The position numbers were made by a program, and so were the translations under genes. Of a stretch of DNA of 64,000 bases, positions 3,849-37,016 are shown piece after piece; the first letter of the stretch is position 1, and each line of letters begins with the position of its first letter. This DNA is from Acinetobacter lwoffii. Lineage in GTDB: Bacteria > Pseudomonadota > Gammaproteobacteria > Pseudomonadales > Moraxellaceae. The notes beneath the pieces were generated by a model that saw only the letters and a list, made by a program, of their open reading frames with translations, made no database searches and was not told where the DNA came from. The DNA is taken from positions 2,613,702 through 2,677,701 of the forward strand of contig NZ_CP059081.1 in the NCBI RefSeq assembly GCF_015602705.1, read 5' to 3'.

Positions 3849-4928
3849 TTAGTTCAATGCAGCAACGACTGCTTGACCCATTTCAACCGTACCGACTTTT
3901 TGCATGCCTTCAGACATAATGTCAGCTGTACGCAAGCCTTGATCCAAGACCTGACCTACTGCATCTTCAATCGCTTTAGCAGCGGCTTCTTCACGGAAGG
4001 TATAACGCAGCATCATCGCCACCGAAAGAATCGTTGCCAATGGATTTGCCAGGTTTTGACCCGCGATATCTGGTGCAGAACCATGACAAGGCTCATACAT
4101 GCCTTTGCCATTTTCATCCAGAGATGCCGATGGCAACATGCCGATTGAACCGGTCAACATCGCAGCTTCATCAGACAGGATATCACCGAACAGATTCGAG
4201 GTGACAATCACGTCAAACTGCTTTGGCGCACGCACCAGTTGCATTGCGGCATTGTCGACATACATATGCGATAAATTAATTTCAGGGTATTCGGCATCTT
4301 TCAGCGCAGTCACTGTCTGTTTCCACAGTTCAGTTACTTCAAGCACGTTGGCTTTATCCACTGAACACACTTTACCACCGCGCAAATTGGCCATTTCAAA
4401 AGCGACTTTGGCGATACGCTTGATTTCAGACTCTGAATAAACGTCGGTGTTATAGCCTTGCTTCTCGCCATTTTCCAGTTCACGAATACCACGTGGCTGA
4501 CCGAAGTAAATACCACCGGTCAATTCACGTACAATCAGAATATCCAGACCCGCTACGATTTCAGGCTTCAAACTTGAAGCATTAGCCAGTTGCGGATAAA
4601 GAATGGCTGGACGCAAGTTAGCAAACAGATTCAGTTCGCTACGCAATTTCAATAAACCACGTTCCGGACGGATTGAACGCTCAATCGTGTCCCATTTTGG
4701 ACCGCCTACGGCACCGAGTAAAATCGCATCGGCTTTTTTAGCCTGTTCAGAAGTCACGTCTGGATACGGTGAACCGTGCGCATCAATGGCTGCACCACCG
4801 AGTAAACCCTGTTCCCATGTCAAATCGAGATTAAATTTTTCATTTACACGAGTCAGCACCTGCTCTGCCGCTTTGACAATTTCAGGACCGATACCGTCAC
4901 CAGCTAAAATCAAAATTTGTTTAGACAT
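3849..4928 (-). CDS. leuB: 3-isopropylmalate dehydrogenase
   Basis: LeuB of 359 residues, which oxidatively decarboxylates 3-isopropylmalate to 2-oxoisocaproate with NAD+ in leucine synthesis. Visible family features are the N-terminal LAGDGIGPE, substrate-binding ERGLLKLR, the [13 protein letters not shown] region, and the signature [19 protein letters not shown] with metal-binding aspartates. Full length. It is last of the leuC-leuD-lipoprotein-leuB group, about 43 bases downstream of the interposed lipoprotein gene, so co-transcription is plausible. Confidence 0.97.
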
Positions 4929-15793: not shown

Positions 15794-15835
15794 TACGGGA
15801 CTTTTTCCAGTCCCTCGACAGTGGTAAAGGTGGTT

Positions 15836-16336
15836 ATGGAATTTCTGGTCATCCTGTTCATGATTGTTGCGGTGTTCTATGTGGTCATTCTTGCACCGGC
15901 CTTGGCTGCCCGCAAAGAAGCTCATAATTCCGGTTCATCTTATATACGCCCCGCCAGCAATCGAGCAATGAGCTATGCCGATCGGCCTAAAATGACTCCA
16001 TTATTGGGCATTGAAATTTCGGCATCGCAACGGCGGCGTTTAGGCAGAGATGACCCCTCCGTCATTGCTGCCAGACTCTATCACCAACAAAAAGATCAAT
16101 TTGCCAGTTTTCAGCAGGCCAGACCACAGCCTCATTCCCCTCACCACAAAGCACCAGTGCAAAGCAAACTCAATAAATTCTTTAATGACTTAATCGCGGA
16201 TGAATCGACAACATCATCCCGGTATCCAAATCAATATTCGCAAACTCGTAACAACCGACCTGTCGCCCCGCTCTCTCCAGTTAAAACTAATCCTAAGCAG
16301 CCCCCACATCGTCCCCAGCCACCTTACAGACCTTAA
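15836..16336 (+). CDS. Membrane-anchored Pro/Gln-rich protein of unknown function
   Basis: Protein of 166 residues from the ATG at 15836, which is preceded by AAAGG. GTG codons at 15821 and 15830 would lengthen it slightly. One N-terminal transmembrane helix (EFLVILFMIVAVFYVVILAP) is followed by a basic, low-complexity tail rich in Pro, Gln, His and Ser (PQPHSPHHK, PPHRPQPPYRP). I recognise no domain. It is 42 bases after ptsP and could be co-transcribed. Its stop codon overlaps the stop codon of the converging small gene at 16333-16512 in a shared TTAA. Confidence 0.7.
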   Translation: MEFLVILFMIVAVFYVVILAPALAARKEAHNSGSSYIRPASNRAMSYADRPKMTPLLGIEISASQRRRLGRDDPSVIAARLYHQQKDQFASFQQARPQPHSPHHKAPVQSKLNKFFNDLIADESTTSSRYPNQYSQTRNNRPVAPLSPVKTNPKQPPHRPQPPYRP

Positions 16337-16512
16337 GCGGCCATTAAAAAAGGGCGATCTTCCATGGAATATCGCCCTTGTCTGTGCTTGTTGTAGCCAC
16401 GTTTTGAATTTTTCTTTCGATCTACAAAAACCTGGCTTTTGTTGACTTCATGCATGTGTTTTGCCACAAAATTGTGGATCACTACCTGCTCGGCTGTTTT
16501 TTTCTTGGCCAT
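16333..16512 (-). CDS. 59-codon basic protein gene with its terminator inside the coding region; ArfA-like candidate
   Basis: Translating the minus strand from the ATG at 16512 gives 59 residues: MAKKKTAEQVV..., a VNKSQVFVDRKKNSKRGYNK core, and a tail ending PFLMAA. The protein is very basic. It has its own TTGAAA-16-TATAAT promoter at 16550-16577 and a transcript start expected near 16542. A strong hairpin followed by T6 (16345-16379) covers codons 47-56, upstream of the TAA. Most transcripts should therefore end before the stop codon and be translated as non-stop messages. That design is known for arfA, which encodes a ribosome-rescue factor switched on when trans-translation fails. The sequence itself is not obviously E. 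coli ArfA, so function is inferred from gene design. Confidence 0.6.
   Translation of the reverse strand: MAKKKTAEQVVIHNFVAKHMHEVNKSQVFVDRKKNSKRGYNKHRQGRYSMEDRPFLMAA
16345..16379 (-). terminator. Intrinsic terminator located inside the 59-codon gene
   Basis: On the minus strand AAGGGCGAT pairs with ATCGCCCTT (16371-16379 with 16350-16358), and the inner TTCCATGGAA is self-complementary and extends the hairpin. Six T follow directly on the minus strand; the plus-strand side reads CTTGTCTG and lacks a T-run. Release should occur near 16345, about 10 bases before the stop codon at 16333-16335. Confidence 0.8.
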
Positions 16513-16549
16513 CTTGCTCTCTATATAATTTGGAGGAAGGAGTGAGATA

Positions 16550-16577
16550 ATTATAGGGCCGACTGACTAATTTTCAA
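16550..16577 (-). promoter_or_regulatory. Sigma-70 promoter of the 59-codon gene
   Basis: On the minus strand TTGAAA (16572-16577) and a perfect TATAAT (16550-16555) are separated by 16 bp. Transcription would start near 16542, giving a leader of about 30 bases. Confidence 0.75.
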
Positions 16578-16882: not shown

Positions 16883-16900
16883 GATGTCTTTCATAAATCA
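16883..16900 (+). repeat. Left terminal inverted repeat of the IS5-family element
   Basis: 18 bp, matching the right end at 17 of 18 positions. It contains the stop codon of the second transposase frame (16898-16900). Confidence 0.85.
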
Positions 16901-17368
16901 TTTTTTACTCAGCTCCAAGTTGTAGATTCCAGCGATTAAATTGAATCTCAAACCAAGCCTTTTACCTCTATTTCGATAACGCTCAGCAAGAATTTTGAAG
17001 GTTTTCAGGCTGCCAAATACATGCTCAATTCCGATTCTTCTTTTATTGATTTCTTGATTATAGATTTTCAATTCAGGATCCAATTTACAGTGTCTTTTGG
17101 CTTTTAATGGCAACAGGCTATTCGGATACAACACATAAATCCCCTGATAGCCTTTATCTGCAAGGATAAAAGCCCCAAAAGGAATCTGGTTTAAATTGCG
17201 TTTGAACAACTCGAAATCATGCACTGCACCGCGACTGGTACATAAACTCATAATTTGCTGAGTTTTGTAGTGAATCATGGCCTGTACTTTAAAGGTATAG
17301 GTCTTTTTCTTGCCGCTATAGCTTTTCTTCTGTTTTTTTAGGTCTTTGGATTGGAATTTCCGTGGCAT
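16898..17368 (-). CDS. IS5-family transposase, C-terminal frame (OrfB)
   Basis: C-terminal half of a DDE_Tnp_4-type transposase. It holds the second catalytic aspartate in LADKGYQG and the glutamate in RRIGIEHVFGSLK. It has no convincing start of its own; the ATG at 17368 lies in the overlap with OrfA. Joining the two frames requires a +1 (or -2) change at a run of seven A (minus strand, 17333-17339). Dropping one A from that run would fuse them directly, so transcript slippage at the run could give full-length enzyme. Alternatively the run is an inactivating one-base insertion. Confidence 0.85.
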   Translation of the reverse strand: MPRKFQSKDLKKQKKSYSGKKKTYTFKVQAMIHYKTQQIMSLCTSRGAVHDFELFKRNLNQIPFGAFILADKGYQGIYVLYPNSLLPLKAKRHCKLDPELKIYNQEINKRRIGIEHVFGSLKTFKILAERYRNRGKRLGLRFNLIAGIYNLELSKK

Positions 17369-17762
17369 CCACGATCACAACATTCCAGTCGATGCCTTCG
17401 CCCTCGGGTAAATCTTTGGGTAAATTAAACAGATTGGACCGAATCAGGCAGTCTTCAACATGACGGACAATTCTTGAGGCTGTGGGCTCTGAAACCCCGT
17501 AACTCGTCGCAACGTGAAATAAGGTTCGGTATTCCCGCCAATAGCTCAGACAGAGCAGAACCTGATCCTCCAGGCTTAACTTGGGCGGTCTGCCTTTGGC
17601 AGAGACATGCTTCTGCAATTGCTCAACCATCAAATAGAAAGTTGACCATGAGATGCCTGTGTATCGCTTGAACTGAGGATCAGAAAGCTTGTTTGAATCG
17701 ATGTATTTCATCCGCAGATTATGCACGAATGCCAAGAAATCCGGAGTGCAAATATTAACCAA
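17316..17762 (-). CDS. IS5-family transposase, N-terminal frame (OrfA)
   Basis: N-terminal part of 148 residues with a helix-turn-helix region (GVSEPTASRIVRHVE) and the first catalytic aspartate near the end (VIVDATEIPIQRPKK). It runs out of frame shortly after the seven-A run and stops at 17316. The catalytic triad is split between this frame and OrfB, so neither part alone should transpose. Confidence 0.85.
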   Translation of the reverse strand: MVNICTPDFLAFVHNLRMKYIDSNKLSDPQFKRYTGISWSTFYLMVEQLQKHVSAKGRPPKLSLEDQVLLCLSYWREYRTLFHVATSYGVSEPTASRIVRHVEDCLIRSNLFNLPKDLPEGEGIDWNVVIVDATEIPIQRPKKTEEKL

Positions 17763-17778
17763 AAAGAAGGTCGTTTTT

Positions 17779-17796
17779 TGATTTATGAAAGAGATC
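17779..17796 (-). repeat. Right terminal inverted repeat of the IS5-family element
   Basis: 18 bp pairing with 16883-16900, one mismatch, followed by the TA duplication at 17797-17798. Confidence 0.85.
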
Positions 17797-20099: not shown

Positions 20100-20510
20100 G
20101 TGAATCCTAAACCTGTATTCCTACAACCACTGCGTACTATCCAGCTGACTTTGGTCATACTATGGCTCTATCAGGGACTCATTCCAAAAATTCTGTTCCA
20201 ATCACCCGCTGAAATCACAATCTGGCAAAATATGGGTTTTGAGCTGGGACTGGCCAAAGTCTTGGTTGGACTTTCCGGAGGATGTGAAATGCTATTTGGC
20301 TTATGCTTTCTGAAATGGAACCGGTCCATACTCTTGCATAGGTTGAATATTATCGGACTTGCTGGATTACTACTGCTGATTGCATTCACAGCCCCGTTGC
20401 AACTTACTGCGGCATTCAATCCTGTGGTAATGAATACCGCCATGCTGATGCTTTCTGTAGTGGCCATTCAACTCATCCAAGAGGAACAACAGGAAGTACT
20501 TAAACAATAA
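20100..20510 (+). CDS. DoxX-like membrane protein
   Basis: Integral membrane protein of 136 residues with four predicted helices (about 13-30, 50-75, 85-105, 110-130), consistent with the DoxX-like family. It uses a GTG start at 20100, the only start that keeps the first helix intact. DCC-DoxX-like pairs are a common arrangement. Its last 11 bases overlap the end of the converging hydrolase gene. Confidence 0.75.
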   Translation: MNPKPVFLQPLRTIQLTLVILWLYQGLIPKILFQSPAEITIWQNMGFELGLAKVLVGLSGGCEMLFGLCFLKWNRSILLHRLNIIGLAGLLLLIAFTAPLQLTAAFNPVVMNTAMLMLSVVAIQLIQEEQQEVLKQ

Positions 20511-21561
20511 TCCGTTTGCCTTCCCGTATGCAGTAAAACGGATTAATCAATTTGGAAGAATGCTTGATGATCTCATGCAACTCATGTTCCGGTGCATCCC
20601 GGTCTTCATCTGTGAGCTGAAAAGTACGGTAATGAATCGCCAGTGAACATTTGGCCTGCAAGTCATGATGGGCATGAAAGGCATCTTCCGGATTCATATG
20701 GATCGCGCGCATCAGTTCACGCGGTTCATACGCTCCTATCGGGAGTAAGGCAATTCGCGGTGCACCCAGACGTTTACGAATTTCTTTAAAATGTGAGGCG
20801 TAGCCACTATCTCCGGCAAAGAAACAATGTTCCTTGCCATGTAATAAAGAAAAGCCTCCCCAGAGTGCGCAGTTCTGATCGCGCATACCGCGCCCTGATG
20901 CATGTTGAGCCGGCGTATAGACAATCCGGATCTCTTCAAAAAAGGCATTTTCCCACCAGTCCATTTCATGCACAGTATAATGTTCTGGCAAATACCAGGC
21001 ATTACCCAGACCAGTATAAATCGGCATCTCAAAAGTGTTGTGCAGCCATTCCAGACTGGCCAGATCCATATGATCATAATGATTATGGCTGAGCAGTACC
21101 GCATCAATCTGGGGTAACTCATCCAGGGCAATGCCAGCCGGAATGACCCGCTGCGGCCCTGTGGAAGCCGAAGGACTGGCATATTCCGCCCAGACCGGGT
21201 CAGTCAGGAAATTATAGGGGCCGATCTGAATTAATGTGGTGGCGTGACCAATAAACCAGACTTGCCAGTCATCCAGAGCTGCATCTGGACGCTGCTGTGG
21301 CAATGCGCGCGGACGAGAAAAAAACTCGGCACGTTCCTCGTCAAGATTAACATTCCAGGTCTTGGATTTTCGGGTAATGAGCCATTTGTATAAATCAAAG
21401 CGACCGCGCGATAGAGAAGCATGCTCAAGATTACGAAACTGTTTTCCGTCGAAATGATCTGAATGCAGATACTCAAACACTGGCTTAGACCAGAGATGTT
21501 TCCAACTGGATTCCGTGATTAACTGGAATTTTTTAGTTTTGAGAAGATCTTGCATAAACAT
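20500..21561 (-). CDS. Metallo-beta-lactamase-fold hydrolase, UlaG/NAPE-PLD-like
   Basis: Protein of 353 residues. The zinc motif HxHxDH is visible as SHNHYDHMD, and later metal-binding histidines/aspartates lie in QHASGRG, FAGDSGY and IHMNPEDA. The pattern with WxGHAT(T)LIQIG in front fits the UlaG/NAPE-hydrolysing phospholipase D-like branch. Substrate unknown, possibly a phospholipid or lactone. No signal peptide is visible. The start at 21561 is followed by a second ATG at 21555. Confidence 0.8.
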   Translation of the reverse strand: MFMQDLLKTKKFQLITESSWKHLWSKPVFEYLHSDHFDGKQFRNLEHASLSRGRFDLYKWLITRKSKTWNVNLDEERAEFFSRPRALPQQRPDAALDDWQVWFIGHATTLIQIGPYNFLTDPVWAEYASPSASTGPQRVIPAGIALDELPQIDAVLLSHNHYDHMDLASLEWLHNTFEMPIYTGLGNAWYLPEHYTVHEMDWWENAFFEEIRIVYTPAQHASGRGMRDQNCALWGGFSLLHGKEHCFFAGDSGYASHFKEIRKRLGAPRIALLPIGAYEPRELMRAIHMNPEDAFHAHHDLQAKCSLAIHYRTFQLTDEDRDAPEHELHEIIKHSSKLINPFYCIREGKRIIV

Positions 21562-36609: not shown

Positions 36610-37016
36610 CAATGTTTCCTTAAACTGCAAAAATTAGGCTTATGCCGGGATCTAAGAGGGACAGAAAATATGGACATGATCAGGCTGATCATCCGCATGG
36701 ACTGCCTTTCTCAGAGCGAGCATAGGAATAAACAGTTTTAGGATGGGAAAAATCTGGCGTTTGTGCCAATAGTTATTTTATTTTTTGCTATAGCTATTAT
36801 CTATAAGAATAATTTATAAAAAATTAAATAAAACAAAATCTTATTGTTTAAAACACATCGTTATTTAGCAAAATAACTGCCATAATATGACCGAATAAAA
36901 TCAGTACAATTACGACTTTAGACTAAAAGATAAGAACCAGCGCTTAAATCTGCAGCATTCCCCAGCCAATTTAAACCGGGGAACTGCTTGTTTTTCATTA
37001 CAACCAAGATACTGGA
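36610..37016. promoter_or_regulatory. Spacer holding the mhpDFE promoter region
   Basis: About 400 bases, very AT-rich at 36770-36900. It must hold the promoter of mhpD. An inverted repeat TTCCCC/GGGGAA around 36958-36982 lies just beyond the gph stop but lacks a T-run. No gene seen. Confidence 0.45.

Follow-up and report, generated by a model that had tools for sequence, protein, structure and literature searches.

The 64,000-nucleotide stretch of Acinetobacter lwoffii DNA analyzed here (contig NZ_CP059081.1; hereafter the window) bears a 59-codon gene on its minus strand at 16333–16512, in which an intrinsic terminator lies within the reading frame—in front of the stop codon. The basic product belongs to the family DUF7230 (PF23876) and is a candidate ribosome-rescue factor: the gene is very probably under non-stop control, and we consider it likely that its product serves as a backup rescue factor, which would resemble ArfA and BrfA in its working without being detectably homologous to ArfA. 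Relatives that bear no functional label are present in methane-eating bacteria and in numerous phages. We favor this reading because of the geometry of the gene, the conservation of this geometry, covariation within the stem, the bias of the C-terminal tail, and the lack of ArfA and ArfB in the genomes searched. Together, these features support a gene that is built to make a non-stop message and is kept so by selection, with a second, degradation-like feature that would guard against read-through.

A terminator within the reading frame

Translation of 16333–16512 (minus strand) gives a protein of 59 amino acids, MAKKKTAEQVVIHNFVAKHMHEVNKSQVFVDRKKNSKRGYNKHRQGRYSMEDRPFLMAA, whose isoelectric point of 10.4 bears out the basic character given to it in the initial annotation. 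The gene is present as a single copy in its own genome, and an identical protein is found in three A. lwoffii genomes (L084–L086). With 58.8 bits (E 5.7e-16) against a curated cut-off of 27 bits, the protein is a member of PF23876, and it is also matched by PHROG 1359, which is catalogued with function unknown. To our knowledge, PF23876 likewise has no known function; no paper in the literature searched mentions DUF7230. A search of NCBIfam with the protein gave no match, and an Rfam search of the region gave no relevant RNA. In alignments, the conserved core spans residues 11–51 (16360–16482, minus strand) and includes N14, V16-A17-K18, D31, and K42-H43. The near-invariant Lys42-His43 is encoded at 16384–16389 on the same strand. 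AlphaFold predicts no confident fold (pLDDT 63, pTM 0.21); a factor without structure in its free state would be consistent with this result, which nevertheless proves nothing.

The hairpin occupies 16350–16379 on the minus strand with an outer stem AAGGGCGAT/ATCGCCCTT, and reads AAGGGCGAT-ATTCCATGGAAG-ATCGCCCTT from 16379 to 16350. It runs into six consecutive T (16346–16351, minus strand), and the TAA stop codon (16333–16335, minus strand) lies 10 nucleotides past the end of this run—an arrangement that the initial annotation had described correctly. From the anatomy of the terminator, the 3′ end of the transcript is predicted at about 16343–16347, upstream of the stop codon; a transcript ending at the T run would stop within codons 55–57 and bear no stop codon. 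The fold of the hairpin stretch has a z of −3.2, and 2 of 200 shuffles are equally stable.

A built-in terminator scan, whose loop limit is 8 nucleotides, missed this hairpin. Our own detector found a terminator-like hairpin wholly inside the last 100 nucleotides of five of the 384 mechanical open reading frames (ORFs) of at least 40 amino acids in the window. The DUF7230 ORF is among these five and is the only one whose tail opens with four T. Chance is excluded by the conservation among related loci described in the following.

Conservation in Acinetobacter

A scan of named genomes provided 51 loci, namely 42 of the Acinetobacter lineage (one labeled only Moraxellaceae) and nine from other gammaproteobacteria. 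Terminators were called by a fixed criterion: a stem of at least 8, a ΔG of −11 or lower, a T-rich tail, and an end before the stop codon, all within 100 nucleotides. By this criterion, every Acinetobacter-lineage locus (42 of 42) has a terminator entirely within the ORF, as against 0 of 117 control ORFs taken from these loci. The initial annotation had proposed to look for homologues whose terminator follows the stop codon, and none is found in this Acinetobacter set. In a separate whole-genome sample of the family, the hairpin precedes the stop codon in all nine loci of the genus (own genome included), with a degraded T tail in one of them (L007). The hairpin keeps a constant codon position, and the stop codon varies from 26 to 53 nucleotides past the hairpin center.

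Among 20 distinct hairpins, three base pairs have changed on both sides, in eight cells. None of 500 shuffles reaches the observed number of paired cells, of double-change cells, of pair types, or the covariation score, although the relatedness of the sequences inflates these figures. Some double changes alter the protein: Arg CGC has become Leu CTC where CGA on the opposite arm has become AGA, and at L060, a G-C pair is replaced by an A-U pair with amino-acid changes on both arms. Synonymous recoding according to genomic codon usage reaches equal hairpin stability in 0–11 of 1000 trials for 19 of the 20 variants and in 49 of 1000 for the remaining one. These patterns argue for selection on the stem itself, and the hairpin in front of the stop codon is almost certainly a conserved feature.

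The read-through tail

Codons 56–59 (LMAA; 16336–16347, minus strand) make up the read-through tail, which entropy and comparison with other tails characterize as non-conserved in sequence, hydrophobic, and ending in AA. The per-residue entropy is mostly below 1 bit through the Arg-Pro-Phe codons and amounts to 2–3.3 bits right after the T run; sequence conservation ends where the transcript is predicted to end. The tails beyond the T run cannot be aligned and carry almost no charge; of 36 distinct tails, 34 have Ala, Cys, Ile, Leu, Val, or Phe as their last residue. Ala or Cys ends are found in 23 of these 36, compared with 20 of 132 tails of unrelated control ORFs (p 2.7e-8) and 5 of 78 tails read in the two alternative frames of this DNA (p 1.5e-10)—p-values that overstate independence, as the species are related.

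Full-length Escherichia coli ArfA is unstable, for which its hydrophobic C-terminus has been made responsible, and the addition of two aspartates at the C-terminus stabilizes it (PMC3989581). Among the reference ArfA tails compared here (loci L022–L024 and L027–L045), 13 of 22 end in Ala or Cys, making the bias common to both families. In sequence character, the DUF7230 tail is similar to the degradation tail on the ArfA read-through product of E. coli, and a double lock—a non-stop message plus a read-through product that would be unstable—is the simplest reading.

Proposed mechanism

In the mechanism proposed here, the intrinsic terminator within the reading frame would cut the DUF7230 message short, and ribosomes would reach the 3′ end of the mRNA at about codons 54–56 without having met a stop codon. 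As long as transfer-messenger RNA (tmRNA) and SmpB are working, the nascent protein would be tagged and degraded. The few read-through transcripts would give the full-length product, whose hydrophobic tail ends in Ala or Cys; this product, too, is probably degraded. With tmRNA overloaded or absent, the truncated basic protein would accumulate and might rescue non-stop ribosomes together with a release factor. Termination in vivo, tagging, accumulation on tmRNA failure, rescue activity, and the release-factor partner are steps that we infer. The initial annotation had suggested that the gene is a counterpart of arfA or encodes some other protein controlled in the same way, and the conserved non-stop architecture, the stem covariation, and the hydrophobic tail support this suggestion; that the protein itself acts in ribosome rescue is likely.

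Relatives in other gammaproteobacteria

Outside Acinetobacter, long stems before or across the stop codon are found in Methylotuvimicrobium, Methylomonas, a Crenotrichaceae metagenome-assembled genome (MAG), a Lysobacterales MAG, and other gammaproteobacterial MAGs. They measure 17 base pairs (L046, L047, and L053), 14 base pairs (L052), and, at the longest, 31 base pairs (L050). L048 places its stop codon in the 3′ arm of an 18-base-pair stem, and L061 bears a terminator. A perfect stem of at least 12 base pairs at or over the stop codon is present in eight of the nine non-Acinetobacter relatives versus 0 of 32 controls. Apart from the L061 terminator and T-rich sequence following the L050 stem, T runs are missing here. 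This suggests that the stems are putative RNase III substrates, like the one in arfA of E. coli. The gene neighbors, named by eye, are ptsP in Acinetobacter, which is convergent (with a small extra ORF in between in the lwoffii group), and mnmG in Methylococcales.

On megaplasmids of Vibrio parahaemolyticus and V. vulnificus, a DUF7230 copy of 47 amino acids is present with no obvious hairpin at the stop codon (L105 and L106, each at 4001–4144); the V. parahaemolyticus record lists no gene at this place.

Distribution and other rescue systems

The own genome of the window bears a tmRNA gene. ArfA was found in none of the 19 genus genomes searched, own genome included, and ArfB passes its cut-off in none of 119 Acinetobacter genomes, where weak ArfB matches mostly fall into frames of 350–370 amino acids—the size of RF1/RF2. 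DUF7230 is present in 70 of these 119 genomes. Within Moraxellaceae, it is found only in the genus of the window, and the family-wide scope given to it in the initial annotation was too wide. No genome of the family or class samples carries both ArfA and DUF7230, although the numbers are small. Among non-Acinetobacter genomes with good DUF7230 scores (at least 36 bits; seven genera), ArfB passes its cut-off in 0 of 9 versus 137 of 274 in the class; three genomes with borderline DUF7230 matches (G145, G360, and G455) do carry ArfB.

The genus genomes without DUF7230 (e.g., G528, G529, G531, and G538) also lack ArfB over cut-off, and either tmRNA is essential in them or another backup is present. 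For these genomes, a diverged copy concealed at the ptsP site was considered, and nothing similar was found there in 12 of them. The literature searched gave nothing on point for a rescue backup in Acinetobacter.

Whether a cell can dispense with tmRNA depends on its alternative rescue factors, and antibiotics directed at tmRNA are being sought. If DUF7230 is a backup, the 70 genus genomes carrying it have one, and the rest appear to lack all three families searched. Species-level differences in tmRNA essentiality would hence be predicted across Acinetobacter.

Phage copies

A tblastn search with the window protein matched 38 phage records at E 0.01 and 42 at E 0.05, among them Cronobacter phages GAP32 and S13, Pectobacterium phage CBB, Salmonella phage Munch, Serratia phage BF, Aeromonas phage Aeh1, Escherichia phage 121Q, and Xanthomonas phage XbC2. 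Ten copies (nine phage, one Vibrio megaplasmid) score 43–67 bits for DUF7230. A scan of viral contigs with the window protein alone gave no match, but a phage-based alignment did find relatives, 156 in number. The record of phage Munch, as annotated by its depositors, shows a terminator within the DUF7230 coding sequence (36837–36861 in 36711–36863), and jumbo phages of the Munch/GAP32/BF group retain a 10-base-pair hairpin at or near the stop codon. Salicola phage SCTP-2 (L119) bears a terminator 57 nucleotides before the stop codon.

Large and T4-like phages widely carry DUF7230, which is annotated in them as hypothetical (e.g., L108, 2501–2653, of Salmonella phage Munch; L109, L110, L112, and L116–L119; viral contigs L137–L216). 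Some copies lie near the topoisomerase gene gp52 and an anti-sigma factor gene (L114 and L117). Marine contigs with the motif embedded in a larger protein are L150, L151, L154, L156, L162, L192, L195, L199, L209, L210, and L214–L216, and several large marine proteins repeat a CWDGYKxVGxKKKxGKxVPNCVP-like motif. The literature searched gave nothing on point for phage-encoded rescue.

Non-stop control as a universal trait of the family was considered and rejected, as 62 distinct viral copies bear no internal terminator and their stems do not exceed those of controls.

Comparison with known rescue factors

ArfA (YhdL; PF03889) of beta- and gammaproteobacteria is, like the DUF7230 protein, short and basic, with a terminator or an RNase III stem before the stop codon and a hydrophobic read-through tail that often ends in Ala or Cys; repression by tmRNA would be expected for DUF7230 likewise. 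The two differ in that no homology is detectable and that DUF7230 lacks the KGKGS motif. The neighborhood of E. coli arfA is mscL, unlike that of the DUF7230 gene.

BrfA (YqkK) of Bacillus subtilis is largely restricted to Bacillus, and its gene bears an intrinsic terminator inside the coding region, like the DUF7230 gene. BrfA is held down by trans-translation, and its Lys49-His50 contacts 16S U534—a contact common to ArfA (PMC6881298). This Lys-His pair sits in the mRNA channel, and Lys42-His43 of DUF7230 resembles it by eye. ArfA and BrfA show low cross-species compatibility (PMC6881298), for which reason cognate release factors matter.

ArfT of Francisella tularensis is basic and has about 40 amino acids, to which the stand-alone phage DUF7230 copies of 36–60 amino acids can be likened by size and gene layout. 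The arfT gene lacks both a terminator and an RNase III site ahead of the stop codon (PMC6299226); the phage copies, mostly without an internal terminator, are like arfT in this respect and unlike the Acinetobacter copies. ArfB (YaeJ) meets the same cellular need with its own GGQ peptidyl-tRNA hydrolase domain, which is absent from the 59-residue DUF7230 protein.

Evidence against a rescue factor and alternative explanations

Several points weigh against a non-stop-controlled rescue factor. None of the 62 distinct viral-contig copies bears an internal terminator by the criterion used for Acinetobacter, and the phage copies are mostly without a lock. The non-stop hairpin is also missing from the divergent members L013, L014, L015, L020, and L107 and from the Vibrio megaplasmid copies. 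In several marine phage contigs, the motif lies inside proteins of 168–587 amino acids, something not expected of a free-standing rescue factor. Within the genus, 49 of 119 genomes lack the DUF7230 gene and must cope otherwise. On the side of homology, PF03889 matches neither the window protein nor 13 relatives with reporting to E = 10, and hhalign of DUF7230 against ArfA gives a probability of 0.4–2.3%, where the small alignments limit power. The KGKGS motif, which lies in the C-terminal half of ArfA, is found neither in the window protein nor in the members shown in alignments A1, A3, A5, and A6. A profile search of the PDB to E = 10 gave no ArfA or BrfA chain, with no direct alignment to BrfA having been made.

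The Pfam and profile–profile comparisons agree with the remark of the initial annotation that the protein is not clearly homologous to E. coli ArfA, and the searches proposed there, with PF03889 and with profiles of the 59 residues, returned PF23876 instead. Membership in ArfA was rejected on Pfam and hhalign. It is doubtful that DUF7230 nevertheless shares its ancestry with ArfA and constitutes a divergent subfamily—a view compatible with the rescue function favored here. Size, charge, gene control, and tail character are all alike in both families. Moreover, the distance from Phe25 of E. coli ArfA to the His of its Lys-His pair, 20 residues, equals by eye that from DUF7230 position 23 to His43, and position 23 is Phe in most relatives (Val in most Acinetobacter); this spacing is a lead and not a test. 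Three weak matches with N-P-x-A-K-x-V-R-x-P-x-F-R (L019, L021, and L107) appear as a mixture of both families and are a possible bridge between them. All of this is set against the hhalign probability, the 0 of 14 members matched by PF03889, and the missing KGKGS motif. The same three short ORFs combine N-P-x-A-K, P-x-F-R, and V-V-x-D, and two of the three genomes also carry ArfB.

Alternatively, the same non-stop control might serve another job, with tmRNA capacity acting as the sensor for a small basic protein without a rescue role, e.g., a ribosome- or RNA-binding stress protein. The evidence from sequence establishes control and not biochemical activity, and no fold is predicted with confidence. 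Likewise, with phage copies mostly free of such control and the motif found inside large proteins, the core may bind RNA or the ribosome more generally. We regard this alternative as unlikely: arfA and brfA, the characterized genes with a terminator or an RNase III site before the stop codon in the literature consulted, both encode rescue factors (PMC8012679, PMC6881298), and DUF7230 occurs in sampled genomes without ArfA and, among the nine well-scoring non-Acinetobacter genomes, without ArfB over cut-off.

An ordinary terminator that overlaps the gene end by chance, squeezed between convergent genes (ptsP, or a 171-amino-acid ORF in the lwoffii group, converges here) and frequently read through to a normal product of the full 59 amino acids with its stop codon, is highly improbable and was rejected, as the arrangement holds in 42 of 42 loci versus 0 of 117 controls, the hairpin is fixed in frame with the stop codon 26 to 53 nucleotides past its center, the plus strand after the hairpin reads TTGTCTG—a poor T run—and Methylococcales and other relatives hold a long stem at the same place with different sequence and neighbors.

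Beyond the backup factor favored for Acinetobacter, DUF7230 might tentatively be seen as an additional, independently evolved family of release-factor-dependent rescue factors, common to gammaproteobacterial chromosomes and large phages. Chromosomal copies would be locked by a terminator or an RNase III stem; phage copies would mostly have shed the lock and may give always-on rescue in infection, with the factor forming one segment of a larger protein in some marine phages. If DUF7230 is the Acinetobacter backup, a Pfam domain of unknown function and PHROG 1359 would both gain a function, and ribosome rescue carried by phages would be suggested.

Promoter and neighboring features

The promoter named in the initial annotation, TTGAAA-16-TATAAT, is present at 16577–16550 on the minus strand with 11 of 12 consensus matches. 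Its −35-like hexamer TTGAAA (16572–16577) and −10-like hexamer TATAAT (16550–16555) are recognized by consensus match alone. Such sites are no rarer in shuffled sequence (three observed in the region versus 4.0 expected), and the best upstream match reaches only 8–9 of 12 in most other Acinetobacter loci sampled. The promoter of the DUF7230 gene is hence putative, though plausible.

Convergent with the DUF7230 gene lies an ORF of 171 amino acids (15821–16336) with no function assigned, and the stop codons of both overlap in one TTAA. A similar ORF is found at the same place in the related loci L084, L090, and L094; elsewhere in Acinetobacter, ptsP is the neighbor. Just upstream of the DUF7230 gene, an insertion sequence spans 16887–17792 with 14-base-pair inverted ends, TCTTTCATAAATCA. 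Its two overlapping transposase ORFs (16898–17368 and 17316–17762; DDE_Tnp_4 and HTH_Tnp_4) suggest expression of the transposase by frameshift. Further along the window, a minus-strand ORF of 353 amino acids (20500–21561) bears a terminator-like hairpin 43 to 6 nucleotides before its stop codon (ΔG −11.3, tail TTGTTTAA).
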